DNA of 34,667 nt, taken from a virus. The stretch's first letter is position 1; every line of letters starts with the position of its first letter. Under the pieces are notes generated by a model. It worked only from the letters and a program-made list of their open reading frames with translations. It was not told where the DNA came from and did not search any database. The DNA lies in IMG/VR virus record IMGVR_UViG_3300023210_000114, positions 1 to 34,667 of that record; one strand, given 5' to 3'. Shown here in pieces: positions 3,518 through 34,667 of the stretch. The position numbers were made by a program, and so were the translations under genes.

Positions 3518-3829
3518 TTACGGGTATTCGTTCAAGAATTCGACTTTTAAAAAATCAAATATTGCACCCCAAGTTTGCGGACTTACAATGTAAGCAATTC
3601 CCCCCGCCTTTCTAATTTGCATTAATTTAATTGATTGAAGCGGGTCAACAACACCGCCTTCAACTTTTAATTCAAACGCAATAAAGTGTCCGTTCAAACA
3701 AATAAGACGGTCGGGTGTTCCGCGTTTTCCTACTTGTTGAATATTTTCAACCCATATATTTTTTCCAAAAACTTTTTTTAATTCTTTGTCAATCAATTCC
3801 GCAAATATTGTTTCGGGTTTTTTAGACAT
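3518..3829 (-). CDS. VRR-NUC type nuclease (PD-(D/E)XK fold)
   Basis: This 103-aa protein carries the compact VRR-NUC core: GTPDRL with D40, then FELK with E53 and K55, preceded by a helical Glu-containing N-terminus (E11) and followed by a Gln-rich helix. Small single-domain VRR-NUC proteins are common in phage replication modules and act as structure-specific endonucleases, for example on branched DNA. AAGGAG seven bases before the ATG at 3829 fixes the start; an upstream in-frame ATG at 3871 lacks such a site. It overlaps the polymerase gene by 8 bp, so translation is probably coupled. It ends the leftward replication block. Confidence 0.8.
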   Translation of the reverse strand: MSKKPETIFAELIDKELKKVFGKNIWVENIQQVGKRGTPDRLICLNGHFIAFELKVEGGVVDPLQSIKLMQIRKAGGIAYIVSPQTWGAIFDFLKVEFLNEYP

Positions 3830-5627
3830 TATAATTCTCCTTGTCGTGCCATGATTCGCGGGAAGTGTCACAACCCACGGTCAAAGGTAAATATTGATGC
3901 GGGTAAGCATTTTGCATTAATGAAGCAAGTTGTGGAATTAAATCGGTTTCGTTTTCATGAATTTCAAAAACAATTTCATCATGGACATTTAAAAGCATTT
4001 TTGATTTGTGTCCTTTTAAAAAACCGTGAATGTTTATCATTGCTTTTTTGACAATATCGGAACCGCCTCCTTGAATTAAATGGTTCGGTGCTTTATACGC
4101 AAAGTTTCTATTTGCAAAGTGACACAAACGACCGCACCAATTAAAAATGAACTTGCGGTTTTCCGCGGTTTTAATTACATTTTTTATAAGTCCTTTTACT
4201 TTAGGCATTTTTGACATTATTCCGTTTCTAATTTGACCGGCGCGGTCCTTTGAAACATTAATTGCACCCGCAAGTTTTGCGTCACCGCCCCCGTAAAGAG
4301 TCAAAAAATTCACCGTCTTTGCAATTGGTCTTTCAACGCCCGCGGTATTTGCGCACGCGGTGTGAACATCAAGACCTTCAAGAATTTGTTTTATGACGGG
4401 CATTTCCCCCGCGTAGTCAAGCATTAATCTATATTCAAGTTGATCGTAGTCAATCATGCAAAAAAAGAAATCTTCACGCGGAACAAAACATTTACGACCT
4501 TTAAATTTTCCCGTTGCTTTGTTCTTAGTAACATTCTGAAGGTTCGGGTTTGAACAAGACATTCTTCCCGTTGTTGTTCCGGCTTGTCTGAAGTTGGTGT
4601 GAATTATGTTTTCACTATCACTTAATTGAATAAAATTATCGTAATAAGTAAACGCATTTTTATACGCGCTTCGGTGGTCTAGTATAAGTTTTGCAACGTC
4701 ATGTTCAACCGCTTCAAGCACGTCGGACTTAAACGACGGGTTCCCTTTGTCGGTCGTCGGGTATTCAATACCGAATTCGTCAAAAACTTTTGTAAGTGTT
4801 TTGCGCCCGTCGTTGAATGGTGTTCCGGTCATTGTTTCAAACGCGTCTTCAATTCTTTGAAGTTCGCTTTTTTCGTGTGTTAAAGCTTCGGCGGTATAAA
4901 GTGGGTCAATTTTAATGCCTGTTTGTTCCATTTCAAACAAAACTTTTGTCAACTTCATTTCCGTTTTATATATATTTGAAATGCACGGTGACCCCGCGGG
5001 TGTTCGCAACATAATTGAATCAAGTTCTTGAAGTAAATCAATACCAAGATCAAAAGTTAAACGACCGTCAAGACAACCATATTCGGAAATCAATTCAAAC
5101 GGGACTTGATCAAAGTGAAAATTCTTTGAACGCTTTTTTGCGCCCGCGGTTTGGACCCAAGTAAAACACTTATTTTTTGTCATGTATGTTTTTACTTCAT
5201 CACTTAATTTTTTACGCCCCAAAAAGTAGGAAGAACAGGCGTCAAGTGAATAACTTAAAAGGTCATTACGTATAAGTCTTGCAAGAACATTTGTGTCGAT
5301 AATGTCAACACCGTCAAAACAAAGACCTTCCTTTGTTAAAAAGTGCATGTCAAACTTTGCGTTGTGCATGAATATAGTTGCACACAAAAGAAGTTCTTGA
5401 AAAAGTTTGAAGTCACTTTGTTCAAGTAAATATTCCGGCGGTGTTTGTGTTTTGTTAAAAGAAAAATAATAGTCTTCGTTTTTGTCTGATATTATAACCG
5501 AAAATATACGGTCATTTTTAAACGGTTCAAGACCCGTTGTTTCGGTGTCAATTGCTAAATAATCGGGGGAATTCGATAAGATGAATTTAATGGTGCTTTT
5601 AAAATTATCTTTGGTTGTGAGGTGCAT
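3822..5627 (-). CDS. polA: Family A DNA polymerase with 3'-5' exonuclease domain
   Basis: This 601-aa protein joins a DnaQ-type proofreading domain to a Pol I polymerase domain. Exonuclease motifs: D27 and E29 in DTETTG, HNAKFD (Exo II) and YGCLD (Exo III). Polymerase motifs: A at D393 (DYDQLEYR), B at R433-G446 (RPIAKTVNFLTLYG, with Lys437 and Phe441) and C at H549-E551 (VHDEIVFE). The 5' nuclease domain of bacterial Pol I is absent, as usual in phage. Phe441 is the position where Phe disfavours dideoxynucleotides. It is the replicative enzyme of this phage by inference. The start overlaps the preceding small gene by 73 bp and has only a weak GGA site. Confidence 0.95.
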   Translation of the reverse strand: MHLTTKDNFKSTIKFILSNSPDYLAIDTETTGLEPFKNDRIFSVIISDKNEDYYFSFNKTQTPPEYLLEQSDFKLFQELLLCATIFMHNAKFDMHFLTKEGLCFDGVDIIDTNVLARLIRNDLLSYSLDACSSYFLGRKKLSDEVKTYMTKNKCFTWVQTAGAKKRSKNFHFDQVPFELISEYGCLDGRLTFDLGIDLLQELDSIMLRTPAGSPCISNIYKTEMKLTKVLFEMEQTGIKIDPLYTAEALTHEKSELQRIEDAFETMTGTPFNDGRKTLTKVFDEFGIEYPTTDKGNPSFKSDVLEAVEHDVAKLILDHRSAYKNAFTYYDNFIQLSDSENIIHTNFRQAGTTTGRMSCSNPNLQNVTKNKATGKFKGRKCFVPREDFFFCMIDYDQLEYRLMLDYAGEMPVIKQILEGLDVHTACANTAGVERPIAKTVNFLTLYGGGDAKLAGAINVSKDRAGQIRNGIMSKMPKVKGLIKNVIKTAENRKFIFNWCGRLCHFANRNFAYKAPNHLIQGGGSDIVKKAMINIHGFLKGHKSKMLLNVHDEIVFEIHENETDLIPQLASLMQNAYPHQYLPLTVGCDTSRESWHDKENYNV

Positions 5628-8487: not shown

Positions 8488-8541
8488 ATGGACATAATTA
8501 ATTATAAATTAGTAGTATTCCAAAAACAAACAACATTATAA
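8488..8541 (+). CDS. Possible 17-residue peptide or gene remnant
   Basis: An ATG directly behind AAAGGGGGAATA opens a frame of only 17 codons, which stops inside the first palindrome of the repeat region. The ribosome site is as good as those of the real neighbours, so this may be a leader peptide, or the start of a gene cut by the repeat array. Confidence 0.3.
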   Translation: MDIINYKLVVFQKQTTL

Positions 8542-8574
8542 TGTATATTTATTGGTTTTATAGGCATTATAATG
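8534..8574. promoter_or_regulatory. Pair of CATTATAATG palindromes, possible operator
   Basis: The perfect palindrome CATTATAATG occurs at 8534-8543 and 8565-8574, 31 bp apart, about three helical turns. Each contains TATAAT. This is the geometry expected for a dimeric repressor bound to one face of the helix; no good -35 element was seen. Confidence 0.45.
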
Positions 8575-8579
8575 TTGGG

Positions 8580-8745
8580 CAGCCTTTTAGAAATTATGAC
8601 ATATTTACTATAAAATGACAAGTTCGCGAAATTTAAGAAATATTTAAAATTTGTCAGCCTTTTAGAAATTATACCGCAGATAAATAAAGGATAAGTTCGC
8701 GAAATTTAAGAAATATTTAAACTTTGTCAGCCTTTTAGAAATTAT
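8580..8745. repeat. Imperfect tandem repeat array of about 74-bp units
   Basis: CAGCCTTTTAGAAATTAT occurs at 8580, 8655 and 8728 (periods 75 and 73). Between copies a variable stretch of about 20 bp is followed by a conserved block with the palindrome TTCGCGAA and AT-rich sequence. The gene-free interval 8542-8806 holds nothing else that I can read. It could be a replication origin, a protein-binding array or repeated promoters. Confidence 0.8.
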
Positions 8746-8795
8746 AACGTAAGGAAGAAACAACAAGAAAAATATTATTGAAATCGAAACTATAA

Positions 8796-12197: not shown

Positions 12198-12304
12198 CTC
12201 CAAACCGTGCACTCAAGTAATTTGCAATCGGTTTCATCGACGGCGAATTCTTTACAAGCGGTTGAAGTCAAAAGAAGAAATATAAAAAGAAATATTATAT
12301 TCAT
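12176..12304 (-). CDS. Tiny Cys-rich lipoprotein
   Basis: A 42-aa frame with a signal peptide of 16 residues ending in a lipobox-like TSTAC (Cys17). The mature part of about 26 residues holds four more Cys. It is the first frame of the leftward operon. The -10 box TATAAT ends seven bases before the A of its ATG, so the transcript may begin at the start codon. Small phage lipoproteins made early can block superinfection at the envelope; that role is inferred from type and position only. Confidence 0.6.
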   Translation of the reverse strand: MNIIFLFIFLLLTSTACKEFAVDETDCKLLECTVWRCECHFK

Positions 12305-12310
12305 CCTTTT

Positions 12311-12338
12311 ATTATAAGGCAACCGGCAAAAAATTCAA
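12311..12338 (-). promoter_or_regulatory. Leftward promoter of the SNF2 operon
   Basis: Reading leftward, TTGAAT (12338-12333), 16 bp, then a perfect TATAAT (12316-12311). The predicted start falls at 12304, the first base of the lipoprotein ATG. It is the best -10 match in this control region. Confidence 0.6.
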
Positions 12339-12347
12339 CCGACTAAA

Positions 12348-12404
12348 TTAGTATAAATTTAAGATAAGAACTATTAAAAATATTATCAATATAAATGTTT
12401 TAAT
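12348..12404 (-). CDS. Possible 18-residue hydrophobic peptide (ATT start)
   Basis: On the leftward strand a six-G run like the local ribosome sites is followed four bases later by ATT and a frame for a peptide with one Lys and otherwise Ile, Leu, Phe and Val, ending at 12348. It would insert in the membrane. The ATT start and AT-rich setting make chance likely. Confidence 0.2.
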   Translation of the reverse strand: MKTFILIIFLIVLILNLY

Positions 12405-12600
12405 TGTTCCCCCCAAATAATTAAGTAAATACTTTATTGCACGGTCGCGTGTTGAATGTCAAACTATTTTAAAAAAGATATACTCTTTACAAAGTTTCAG
12501 TGATTTAAAACCTTGGGGGGAAATAAAGACAAAAAGCTTTGCAAAGAGTATATCTTCTTATACTTTAATTGTTCAACATTTACAAACTATTTGGGGGGAA
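12399..12600. repeat. Nested inverted repeats upstream of the primase-helicase
   Basis: Three inverted pairs share roughly one centre. Outer: TTCCCCCCAAATA (12407-12419) and its complement at 12588-12600. Middle: TGTTGAA (12450) and TTCAACA (12572). Inner: arms 12475-12497 and 12534-12556, 23 bp with one mismatch and one G-T pair, around a 36-nt loop. TTTAATTGTTC is also repeated directly (12399, 12564). Both inner arms contain TATACT, facing inward. A replication origin or a repressor/promoter complex is the likely role; the gene-free interval 12305-12603 holds little else. Confidence 0.8.
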
Positions 12601-12603
12601 TCA

Positions 12604-14916
12604 ATGATTCAATTAGGTGTTTTACGGGATAATAAAGGGTTTCAATTTATAAACGGTTGGAACTATAAGACACTTGAAGCAATGTTTGCGGGTGTTCAAG
12701 CCGATCTTGTGACTGAAAAATATTTAAAAAAAGATGAACAATACAATGTTTTCTTCACGGTCGCGCATCACTTGGAAGGAACACGAAGTCAAAAGTCTTT
12801 TCAATCACAAGAACATATTGCATTTGATCTTGACGGAATTGACCTTGACCGACTTGACGAATATTTTCCAAAGCTTTGCAAAGTCCTTGAACTTGACCCT
12901 GAAAAAACCGCTTGTGTTTATTCCGGCAACGGAATTCATGTATATATTCGAATTCCTGAAATGATTACAGACAAAGTAAAATATAAAAATCTTAAAAAAG
13001 GCTATAAAAGAAAGTGTGATATTGCAGAAAAAAAGTTTAATGAAGCGGGCATGAAGCTAAAAATGGACCCGACATGTTGGGACTTTGCGCGAATTCTTCG
13101 TGTTCCTTTTACAAAAAACCTAAAAATAAAAGGCGGTGTTGTAAGTGAAAAACAATGTGAAATCAAAAACGCCGTTTGCTTGCCCCAAGAATTTGAACTT
13201 GAAACCGTTGGTGACAAAGAACCGTCAAATCATTTTCTTAAAGCGGGACAGTTTGCAAAACCCGACCCCGAAACAATTCTCAAAAAGTGTGACTTTTTTA
13301 AATGGTTACAAGAAACACCGGAACAAGTTCATGAACCGCATATGTATGCTATGTTGTCAATTACTGCTCATTTCCATGATAACAATGACACTTCCTATCG
13401 TCTTATGTCTAATTTTTCTAGTCCTTCAATTGATCGGGTTGATAAAACTGAAAAAATTGATCAAGCACTAAGTGCTTCGGGACCGCGAACGTGTGCGGGT
13501 ATTGATGACATTTATGGTAAGTGTCAAAAGTGCCCTTACTTTGGGAAAATAACTTCACCTATTCTTTTAAAATCAAATAAACATATTGGAACCGAAGAAA
13601 TGGGTTTCACAATTGTTGGACCAAAGGGCGGCATAAAAAGACAATACGGTGATTTATTGCTTGCCTTCCAACGTGACAAACATCATAAGTCCGTAGGTAC
13701 TATGAAAAAAACTTACGTTTACACCGGCACCCATTACAGAATGACCAACGAAATGGAAATAAAAAACTTTGCGCAAACTAAATTTTTTCCAATGGCAAAT
13801 GAAAATGAATGTTCTGAATTTAAAAGTCTTGTGACCCGAACAAATTATGTTCATGACGGAATTTTTGACTTTGCAGACACAACCGGCATGATAAATTTGA
13901 AGAACGGAATTCTTGACATAAAGACAAAAACATTGAAACCGCATACACCCGAAATTTATTTTACTTCGTGTTTAAAATATAATTATAATCCGGCGGCAAC
14001 GTGCCCAACTTGGGACCAATTTATAAAAGACGTGACGCTTGACCGTCAATGTCTTCAAAACATTCTTCATGAATACTTAGGTTTTATTTTATCGGGCGAA
14101 CCTTATAAATTTCAAAAAGCTTTAATTCTTGACGGTGCCGGTAAAAACGGGAAGACAACATTTTTAAAACTATTAAAAAAACTTGTTGGGTTTACAAATG
14201 TTTCAACAGTTTCAATTAAAGAACTTGGTGCGTCCGTTTTTGCGTCGTCAAGTCTTCATGGTAAATTGTGTAATATAAGTGAGGAAGAACCGCCCGAATC
14301 ATTTAAACAACAATCGGGAAGTTTTAAGAACTTGACGGGTGACGGAACAATAACAGCACAATATAAATATGGGGATTTATTTCAATTTGAAAACATTGCA
14401 AAATTAATTATTTCCTATAATGAAATGCCGTATATATCCGACACAACAACCGGTATGATGCGGCGGCTATTAATTACACCGTGGGATTATGACCTTGAAG
14501 ACGTTCACAAAGATCGGGTTGACCCCGATATTGACGGGAAGCTTGACGCGGAACTTGAAGGAATATTTATAAAATGCCTTGAAGGATATGAACGACTTGT
14601 CAAACAAAAAGGGTTCACAAAATCAAAATATGTTGACGACCGTGTTGAAGACGTTCGGGTTTTTTCTGATAATGTTGGTGACTTTTTGAAGAACGGGTGT
14701 GTCAAAACGGGAAATAATTCAGACGAAGTTTTGTTTTCAGACTTTTTTAATGCCTTTGAAATTTACAATGAAGACGAACGCAACGGGCAAAAAATTTCAA
14801 AAGTTGCTTTTTCAAAACGACTTACGAAGAACCGCGTCAAGATAATGGAACGCAGCGTGAAGGGAAGAAAAACAAAATTTATTATTGGCTTTGCGTTGGA
14901 CGCTCCGAATTACTGA
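12604..14916 (+). CDS. Primase-polymerase/SF3 helicase fusion
   Basis: This 770-aa protein has an N-terminal archaeo-eukaryotic primase domain: DLD (D75, D77), SGNGIH (107-112) and DPTCWDFARILR with D155. A Cys cluster follows (C297, C307, C310), likely zinc-binding. The C-terminal half is an SF3 helicase of the D5/P4 type: Walker A GAGKNGKT (511-518), Walker B ISEEE (558-562), motif C with N606 and an Arg pair at 620-621. Such proteins prime and unwind at phage or plasmid origins. The ATG follows GGGGGGAATCA. Repeat loci lie just before and just after it, consistent with origin recognition. The following C-terminal tail is basic. Confidence 0.93.
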   Translation: MIQLGVLRDNKGFQFINGWNYKTLEAMFAGVQADLVTEKYLKKDEQYNVFFTVAHHLEGTRSQKSFQSQEHIAFDLDGIDLDRLDEYFPKLCKVLELDPEKTACVYSGNGIHVYIRIPEMITDKVKYKNLKKGYKRKCDIAEKKFNEAGMKLKMDPTCWDFARILRVPFTKNLKIKGGVVSEKQCEIKNAVCLPQEFELETVGDKEPSNHFLKAGQFAKPDPETILKKCDFFKWLQETPEQVHEPHMYAMLSITAHFHDNNDTSYRLMSNFSSPSIDRVDKTEKIDQALSASGPRTCAGIDDIYGKCQKCPYFGKITSPILLKSNKHIGTEEMGFTIVGPKGGIKRQYGDLLLAFQRDKHHKSVGTMKKTYVYTGTHYRMTNEMEIKNFAQTKFFPMANENECSEFKSLVTRTNYVHDGIFDFADTTGMINLKNGILDIKTKTLKPHTPEIYFTSCLKYNYNPAATCPTWDQFIKDVTLDRQCLQNILHEYLGFILSGEPYKFQKALILDGAGKNGKTTFLKLLKKLVGFTNVSTVSIKELGASVFASSSLHGKLCNISEEEPPESFKQQSGSFKNLTGDGTITAQYKYGDLFQFENIAKLIISYNEMPYISDTTTGMMRRLLITPWDYDLEDVHKDRVDPDIDGKLDAELEGIFIKCLEGYERLVKQKGFTKSKYVDDRVEDVRVFSDNVGDFLKNGCVKTGNNSDEVLFSDFFNAFEIYNEDERNGQKISKVAFSKRLTKNRVKIMERSVKGRKTKFIIGFALDAPNY

Positions 14917-14917
14917 A

Positions 14918-15160
14918 AAATGAACCCGCGACTTGCACCGCATTGAAGTCAATAAAAACAATTAAGTAATGCACCGTTTCGCAAAACATGGGTTCATTTA
15001 ACCCTTTATAATCTATTTACATAGGGATTGATTTTTAAAATAAAATAAAAGAGAGGGTAAGAAAGTAAAAAAAGGTTTTAAAACGGTCAAATGAACCCAT
15101 TGAACCCGCGGTTTGCTTGATTCCTCAATAATATTATCGGTTTATAGCGCGGGTTCATTT
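14918..15160. repeat. AAATGAACCCGCG inverted-repeat cluster (origin or packaging-site candidate)
   Basis: The core TGAACCC or its complement occurs five times in the 359-bp gap between primase-helicase and terS: forward at 14918, 15089 and 15100, reverse at 14990 and 15148. Forward and reverse copies pair into stem-loops, the best being TGAACCCGCG (15101-15110) with CGCGGGTTCA (15148-15157). Between lies a purine-rich AT tract (15040-15085). The place, next to both the initiator-like gene and terS, fits an iteron origin or a cos/pac site. Confidence 0.75.
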
Positions 15161-15204
15161 AAAATTAAAGCACCTTGTCATTTTGACGCGGTTTTTGTTA
15201 TTAC

Positions 15205-15232
15205 TTGACCCGTTTACTTCGTTGACAATAAT
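15205..15232 (+). promoter_or_regulatory. Candidate promoter of the terminase operon
   Basis: TTGACC (15205-15210), 16 bp, AATAAT (15227-15232). The predicted start lies about 37 bp before the terS start. TTGACG and TTGACA nearby give alternative -35 boxes without good -10 boxes. Confidence 0.4.
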
Positions 15233-15275
15233 TTTTTATTTTGCTTGGTTATTGATATTTAGGTAAACTGTTTTG

Positions 15276-15770
15276 ATGACAACTAAAAAAACAAAAACAA
15301 AAAAGAAACCAACAAAAAAAAGCACAAAGAAAAAGGTTTTAAAAAAGTCCGGTCCTGAAAAGGGTGAAGAAATGCCTGAAGGCTATACGTTCGGACGACC
15401 GACAAAATACAAAAAAGAATTTTGCGCTTTACTTCTTGAAAAATCAAAAACGGGTGAATGTTTAACACGTGCAAGTCTTTGTGTTTTACTTGATATTGAT
15501 TTTGATACTTTGCAAGCTTGGGAAAAAAAACACCTTGACTTTTCCGAAGCTATAAAAAAGAGTGAAGTGCATCGTATGCACCACATGGAAGCAAAAGGTT
15601 TTGCGGGAATAAACGCGGGTAAACAATTTAATGCGGTCCCTTGGTTGTTCCTTACAAAAAACATGTTCCCAAAACATTATGCGGACAAAAAAGAAGTTGC
15701 TATTGAAGCAACGGAAGACGCAAAAAAAACATTTGCTTTTACACTTGAAAAAGACGTTGAAAAAATTTAA
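15276..15770 (+). CDS. terS: Terminase small subunit
   Basis: A 164-aa protein with a very Lys-rich N-terminus (residues 1-25), then GRPTKY and a helix-turn-helix region (about residues 45-90, LTRASLCVLLDIDFDTLQAW) typical of small terminase subunits, which bind the packaging site and load DNA onto the motor. The helical C-terminal part would form the ring. An in-frame TTG at 15273 is an alternative start; neither has a strong ribosome site. Its stop overlaps the ATG of the large subunit by one base (TAATG). Family identity rests on the HTH pattern and context. Confidence 0.85.
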   Translation: MTTKKTKTKKKPTKKSTKKKVLKKSGPEKGEEMPEGYTFGRPTKYKKEFCALLLEKSKTGECLTRASLCVLLDIDFDTLQAWEKKHLDFSEAIKKSEVHRMHHMEAKGFAGINAGKQFNAVPWLFLTKNMFPKHYADKKEVAIEATEDAKKTFAFTLEKDVEKI

Positions 15771-33103: not shown

Positions 33104-34667
33104 ATGGCACTTCCTTTTCCAATAAACGCAAATCAAACCGACGCAAAAAGTCCCATTGATCAAACATTGATGGACGCTTTAAGATTGAACCAAGAATATA
33201 TTGAAGCACAACTTGGTGCGGGTTCGGCGGGCGGCATTATCGCCTTCAGGGTGAACGGTTATTTAAATTCAATAAAAGCTTTACTTGATCAAGGTGCCGG
33301 AAAATATCTTGACGGCGGTGTTCTTAGTGCCGCGGTAACATTTACAAAGGCGGCGTTGTACTTAGAAAGAAGCGGAACTTCAGGCGCGCTTGAAGTTGAT
33401 GTTTTAAGACACAAAGAAGTTCAACACGGTATTGAAGACATAAGTGCGCAATTTAATGAAGTGCCGCAATCGGTGGGACGTGCAACAACTTCAAGCGCGA
33501 CTTTAAGTGTTGCGCGAGCAACCGCAAATATAAACACGCAATCAATTGCATATGCAAAACCGACTTTAAACATTGAAAGCATTGCCGCGGTTCCCGACGC
33601 GGTTTTTGGTGCAAATTATTGGTTGATCACTTTTTCAGGATCAACTTTACTTGATAGTGATTTTGAAATCGGTGACTATGTTGTAATTTCCGGCGCAACG
33701 TCGGGGGGGAATAATTCAACCCAAGGGATTGAAGCAATAAATTATGACGGACTTCCTTCCGTTGTGGTTCAAAACCCTTCAGGTGTTTTACAACCCGCAC
33801 CCGCGGGAACCGTTGATTTAAAATGTCATGTATTTACTTATCTTACTTCGGTTGATAGTGAATTTGTTGTAGGTGAAACCTTAATACAAACAGGGCACGG
33901 GTTCACCGGCGGCGCAATGACCGTTTTTAAAACAAACCAAGGCGGGAATAACGTTTGGTTAAAACATTTAAATATTATCAACACCGGCGCACCCGCGGGT
34001 TCTATTCAATGCGGTCGGTATGTTTACACTTACGGAAGCGCGATTGACACAACGGCGTATGTCGTTGACGAAACCGCGCATTTCACAGGTCATGGCGGTT
34101 CGAACAACGGGAAGTTTTTAATTAAAGGAATTAATGAAGCGGGAAATAATATAAAAGTTTATAATGCCGGCGGTATTATACAGGCGGGTGCCGGCGGTCA
34201 AGTTGATTGTTTGCGGTGGTCCTATGCAATGCCGGTTGACCCAACGGGTGACGTTGTTTTAAATGACAATGTTGTTTTTTCAAATATGACCGCGGCGGGA
34301 AATGACGGGACTTTTGCGGTCGGTGAAATAAATCGCTTTGCAAGTAATAACATTGTAATTCACAATGACGACGGTGTTGTTCAAGCCGGCGTTGCCGGTG
34401 ACGCAAAACACACTAAGAAAATTTTAACTTTTTTACAAGATCATAGCGCATTTTATATTGCAGACACTTCAAAAGTTGCGCTTGAAGGTGTCATAAATAT
34501 TTTAGACACGGACAAGCGAGAATATGCCGTTGTGGAAGTAAACCGCGGCGGTTTTTCAAATTACAATATTGTTATTGAAGCCGAAACCGTAGGTGAAAAT
34601 CAAGCGGCGCAAGGTCGTGTTGCGCGTGAAGTAAGAACTATATTTATACAACGTCAGCGACTTGAAC
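33104..34667 (+). CDS. Tail tip/fibre protein, N-terminal part (continues at 1-302)
   Basis: The ATG at 33104 has AAAAGG upstream. The frame is open to the end of the window and continues at base 1, giving about 575 aa. Residues 1-70 are helical, the rest is Gly/Ala/Asn-rich and beta-structured with repeated short turns (for example ISGATSGGNN and TGHGGSNNGK), as in trimeric fibres. It follows the hub gene, so a tail fibre or tip spike is likely. No enzymatic domain is seen. Confidence 0.8.
   Translation, partial: MALPFPINANQTDAKSPIDQTLMDALRLNQEYIEAQLGAGSAGGIIAFRVNGYLNSIKALLDQGAGKYLDGGVLSAAVTFTKAALYLERSGTSGALEVDVLRHKEVQHGIEDISAQFNEVPQSVGRATTSSATLSVARATANINTQSIAYAKPTLNIESIAAVPDAVFGANYWLITFSGSTLLDSDFEIGDYVVISGATSGGNNSTQGIEAINYDGLPSVVVQNPSGVLQPAPAGTVDLKCHVFTYLTSVDSEFVVGETLIQTGHGFTGGAMTVFKTNQGGNNVWLKHLNIINTGAPAGSIQCGRYVYTYGSAIDTTAYVVDETAHFTGHGGSNNGKFLIKGINEAGNNIKVYNAGGIIQAGAGGQVDCLRWSYAMPVDPTGDVVLNDNVVFSNMTAAGNDGTFAVGEINRFASNNIVIHNDDGVVQAGVAGDAKHTKKILTFLQDHSAFYIADTSKVALEGVINILDTDKREYAVVEVNRGGFSNYNIVIEAETVGENQAAQGRVAREVRTIFIQRQRLE
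34530..34667. repeat. Terminal direct repeat, right copy
   Basis: Copy of bases 1-138 with one mismatch at 34656. The first 126 bases are identical. Joining the two copies closes the genome to about 34,529 bp. Confidence 0.95.

Follow-up and report, generated by a model that had tools for sequence, protein, structure and literature searches.

What is the function of the short repeats that lie between the primase-helicase gene and the gene for the terminase small subunit (terS) of an uncultivated phage? The original prediction regarded this locus as either a replication origin or a packaging start, and allowed for a combination of the two. The window (the entire stretch of DNA analysed) comprises the 34,667 bases of virus record IMGVR_UViG_3300023210_000114. 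Its ends (1-139 and 34529-34667) are near-identical over about 139 bases, with at least one mismatch, and the record is therefore probably a near-complete tailed phage genome of ~34.5 kb, in what is probably a circular or permuted assembly of that size.

Direct reading of the sequence bore out the predicted five copies of TGAACCC in both orientations, three on the plus strand (14921, 15092 and 15101) and two on the minus strand (14990 and 15151). Motif and inverted-match searches extended four of these to a longer core, which reads AAATGAACCC at 14918-14927 and 15089-15098 (iterons 1 and 3, plus strand) and GGGTTCATTTAA, i.e. the same core on the minus strand, at 14990-14999 and 15151-15160 (iterons 2 and 5). 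Iteron 4 (15101-15107, plus strand) consists of TGAACCC and was found by the motif search. The outermost copies mirror each other: AAATGAACCCGCG (14918-14930) is a perfect 13-nt inverted match of 15148-15160. The entire element, as delimited by the repeats, the inverted matches and shuffle tests, runs from 14917 to 15162. The stop codon of the primase-helicase gene ends at 14916, with the first extended copy starting 2 nt further on, and about 115 nt separate the end of the last copy from the ATG of terS (15276-15770, plus strand, phrog_309), which probably lies outside the element.

Within the element an AT-rich purine tract (approximately 15033-15082, plus strand; about 73-80% AT and up to 90% purine over 30 nt) has inverted repeats on both sides. 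The left one (14918-14936 with 14981-14999) is 19 nt long and 79% matched, with a perfect outer 10 bp; the right one (15101-15110 with 15148-15157) is a perfect 10 bp. Thus, of the two predicted stem-loops around the tract (14918-14999 and 15101-15157), the inverted repeats and the tract itself were recovered. However, the single-strand DNA folding z-scores of -1.5 and -2.7 were modest, and the stem-loops look like a by-product of the inverted iterons rather than large hairpins.

Among GC-containing 7-mers, TGAACCC forms the densest cluster of the window. When the test covered the whole window and was open to every 7-mer that contains 3 or more G/C (copies counted within 250 bp), five copies were equalled in 1 of 100 dinucleotide shuffles. 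In addition, the interval 14917-15275 contains 14 pairs of repeated 10-mers, against a mean of 0.22 and a maximum of 6 in shuffles (0 of 2000 reached 14). For repeated 10-mers, other stretches of the window have equal or higher scores: repetitive coding sequence near 1.6 kb and near 23.1 kb, and, at 8.5 kb, a tandem repeat that is non-coding. The last of these (8531-8751) is built of 73-75 bp units, two copies of which are 94% alike and are followed by a partial third; the units carry TTCGCGAA and CAGCCTTTTAGAAATTAT, and an 18-nt inverted repeat (CAACATTATAATGT) precedes them. It had no match in Rfam and is a possible second cis element. As a rival origin it was rejected, having other motifs and no TGAACCC cluster. 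The GC skew was uninformative: it shows no switch at the element between the primase-helicase gene and terS, and its detrended minimum is near 18.6 kb and its maximum near 3.4 kb.

The extended motif itself was of no help in finding relatives: AAATGAACCC-N40-70-GGGTTCATTT matched in IMG/VR only two contigs of one isolate, which have prophage-like surroundings, and no primase was seen around the longer of the two. Relatives were defined by their primases (30-50% identical), and ten of those in IMG/VR were distinct and readable 3' of the primase gene. The order primase, interval, terS was kept in all ten. In nine of them a short motif was clustered in the interval, with copies in either orientation, and only in the primase-terS interval of L008 was no convincing cluster found. 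Six clusters were strong, with ATGTTACC in L014 (equivalent to L001 and L002), GTGTAACC in both L012 (equivalent to L004) and L013, GTGTCACA in L015, GTCCA in L016 and TGCTGCC in L018. Three were weaker, with GTGCC in L007 and GTAACC in both L010 (equivalent to L009) and L011. The motif is thus unlike between most lineages and the architecture is constant; that the iteron changes fast while the architecture stays is the most interesting aspect of the locus. Small genes separate the primase gene from the element in L013 and L015. The array of L013 (11975-12439) is very dense, with eight copies of GTGTAACC, four of which follow one another head-to-tail every 10 bp, roughly once per helical turn. 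Scanning bacterial genome contigs with the primase alignment yielded no relatives.

The gene directly upstream of the element (12604-14916, plus strand) encodes a primase-helicase of 770 aa, which we propose as the origin initiator. It contains the Pfam domains D5_N and DUF5906 (SF3), is classified as a DNA primase in PHROGs, and was matched by family profile to the SaPI5 primase-helicase Rep (7ola; E 2e-33, positions 378-758). The AlphaFold2 model of the protein (mean pLDDT 82.8) agreed with this, giving a TM score (target) of 0.73-0.75 against 7ola. Modelled alone, the last 110 residues formed a winged helix with moderate confidence (mean pLDDT 74). This C-terminal domain (aa 675-770; 14626-14913, plus strand) is proposed to bind the iterons: its model matched 1ka8, the origin-binding domain of P4 alpha, with a Z of 8.3 and an rmsd of 2.4 over 77 of 100 residues, while the sequence profile for a C-terminal origin-binding domain was marginal (E 0.25). 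RFX and ASFV PrimPol domains appeared in the same fold list with a Z of 7.5-9.9, similar to or above 1ka8, and since winged helices are common, the fold by itself leaves the function unproven. Judged by sequence identity, the C-terminus is conserved less than the primase-helicase overall (21-35% between the window and its relatives, against 41-50% for the whole proteins of the same relatives). Within the family, the iteron type was seen to be linked to the residues that precede the conserved Phe in the proposed recognition helix, which are rich in R and K in the GTAACC-type relatives. This link was abandoned, as it breaks down in Javan633, Sfi21 and a Halorubrum virus. Upstream of the primase-helicase gene lies a divergent intergenic region (12213-12603) with a 26-nt inverted repeat (12472-12497 with 12534-12559, 88%) and recurring CCCCCC/GGGGGG motifs, which is likely a control region for two divergent operons.

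The same layout was found in named phages beyond the family, whose D5-type primases are distant (about 22-31% identity). Repeats are situated directly 3' of the primase gene in Streptococcus phage Javan633 (ACGTAAC), a Halorubrum tailed virus (CCGTTAC), Staphylococcus phage DSP2 (CCCCTAA), AcaML1 (CCGTCAG), Synechococcus phage Sc-Yong805-1 (ATCCTCC), Paracoccus phage Pthi1 (GGGCCTG) and Mycobacterium phage Shandong1 (AGCACAGAT); the repeats of Sc-Yong805-1 and Pthi1 overlap with annotated hypothetical ORFs. In DSP2, AcaML1, Sc-Yong805-1 and the relative L007, the copies on each side of the centre share one direction, which is opposite between left and right. Among 33 primases, 13 had a cluster with p<=0.01 within 500 bp on their 3' side and 2 had one on their 5' side (Fisher p 0.0012, for a non-random sample that contains relatives and includes P4 and Sfi21 as yardsticks). 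In many other phages no iterons were found directly 3' of the D5-type primase, among them Proteus phage PM-CJR, KLEA5, the two Klebsiella phages VLCpiS10a and Carvaje, and IME_EF3. The strict k-mer test also misses the annotated Sfi21 origin and is therefore an incomplete detector. Of 17 scorable elements, 15 have the purines of the tract on the coding strand of the primase (sign test p 0.001, uncorrected for relatedness), a bias that suggests a strand-specific role.

Several characterised or annotated systems resemble this arrangement. In the P4 record (X51522), crr and type 1 ori repeats are annotated directly 3' of alpha. Read in the direction of alpha, the P4 iterons lie on either side of AAATTAAAAGAGAAAAACGAAAG, a purine AT tract. 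P4 thus shares with the window two-way iterons directly 3' of the primase-helicase gene, an AT-rich purine tract and a C-terminal winged-helix origin-binding domain. It differs in having a separate ori about 4.7 kb away, two 120-bp copies of crr, another iteron (GGTGAACA) and a primase of the TOPRIM type (PMC4234260). SaPI5 Rep is likewise a D5-type helicase initiator, and both its helicase and its C-terminal part match by profile and fold. The SaPI origin, likened here by its description, consists of short iterons just downstream of the Rep gene (PMC7581432), but SaPIs are satellite islands whereas the window represents a stand-alone phage. In Streptococcus phage Sfi21 (AF115103) a 302-bp origin is annotated at the 3' end of the putative primase gene; it has the same position and an AT-rich and purine tract surrounded by short repeats, but its repeats are AGTAAC-like and more degenerate, and its terS is far away. 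In SCCmec, Cch2 uses its C-terminal domain to bind direct repeats that lie downstream of the Cch2 gene (PMC7581432). The putative origin there differs in having three AAGTG iterons, and replication in vivo was not shown. Finally, ORF904 of pRN1 is an initiator of primase, SF3 and winged-helix parts, and a stem-loop 3' of its gene is needed (PMC4234260). That origin is a single 100-nt stem-loop without iterons. A long stem-loop of the pRN1 type (~100 nt) was rejected for the window, where the arms measure about 10 bp and folding is modest.

The element combines a multi-copy two-way motif, a position 3' of the initiator gene and an AT-rich tract between iteron groups with an initiator that has a D5-type SF3 helicase and, in the predicted model, a C-terminal winged helix. 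Based on these features, on the recurrence of the element in relatives with diverged motifs, on the same layout in unrelated phages and on the protein matches to SaPI5 Rep and the P4 domain, it is very probably a cis-acting iteron origin of the P4-crr / SaPI type, to which the adjacent D5/SF3 primase-helicase would bind and at which it would initiate replication. The C-terminal winged helix would bind the five TGAACCC iterons, and the two-way copies on both sides of the tract would position SF3 hexamers with opposed orientations. Driven by ATP, these would then unwind the DNA and open the tract at 15033-15082, which we propose as the unwinding element. Primers would be laid by the N-terminal primase part and extended by the family A DNA polymerase of the phage, which was identified with Pfam at 3822-5627. 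The iteron-origin design is already known from P4 and the staphylococcal islands, and the window adds a new phage family to it. An uncultivated phage thereby gains a concrete, testable pair of origin and initiator. The named phages suggest that tailed phages with widely differing hosts, an archaeal virus included, commonly have a replicon laid out as a D5-type primase-helicase gene with iterons directly 3' of it. Natural pairs of winged helix and iteron could help to decipher a DNA recognition code and to predict where origins lie in further phages that lack annotation.

Of the two functions originally put forward, the origin is the one backed by the relatives, the named phages, P4 crr and Sfi21, while the evidence turned against packaging. 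A site with both roles, at which TerS or terminase would recognise the same iterons or the melted tract and initiation and packaging would compete, is improbable; if true, it would explain the lasting neighbourhood of origin and terS in the phage family. We consider it very unlikely that the element is purely a packaging start (pac), with the repeats bound by TerS and the initial terminase cut placed within or close to them. The pac sites of headful phages are often in or near terS, which counts in favour, as does terS lying downstream of the element, both in one neighbourhood throughout the family. However, in five relatives (L014, L010, L011, L013 and L015) an ORF separates the element from terS, and the layout exists without an adjacent terS in P4, Sfi21, Javan633, the Halorubrum virus, DSP2, AcaML1 and Shandong1. 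Moreover, the window and L012 have similar TerS proteins (54%, E 6e-59) and unlike motifs, whereas L012 and L013 have GTGTAACC in common and dissimilar TerS proteins (27%, E 6e-9). A pac site whose motif tracks the TerS type and which accompanies terS is at odds with the L012/L013 pair, with the reverse case of the window and L012, and with the elements that lack an adjacent terS. The C-termini of the primases are 33% identical between L012 and L013 (E 3e-14) and 29% between the window and L012 (E 2e-4). As far as a single three-way comparison of sequences (window, L012 and L013) allows, this points to a motif that goes with the C-terminus of the primase and not with TerS.

There is also little probability that TGAACCC is an operator through which a phage repressor or activator controls terS and the late genes. 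Short inverted repeats often serve as operators, and a promoter-like site (15205-15232) is present between the element and terS, but such sites occur at chance level (1 found against 1.4 expected), and the element, which has an AT tract inside it, stretches over 240 bp and is found again 3' of primases regardless of the next gene. Least credible is the view that the primase transcript ends here in a transcription terminator or a structured RNA, with the repeats as RNA hairpins. Terminator-like hairpins do occur at 14990-15004 (the region has 3, with 0.3 expected), and a clear terminator is found beside the element in L010, L011 and L016. On the other side, folding is only moderately better than in shuffles, Rfam gave no match and repeats in direct orientation are unfit for a hairpin. 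Moreover, an origin may have a terminator next to it, as in the P4 annotation.

For Bordetella phage BIP-1, to which BPP-1 is nearly identical, a stem-loop origin was proposed and no origin-like iterons were found (PMC4234260). In BPP-1 (L040) we observed TTTGCCTCG repeats at 4259-4355, two copies in one orientation and one in the opposite, between the primase gene and terS and 470 bp 3' of the former. These repeats may be a better description of the BPP-1/BIP-1 origin than the stem-loop.
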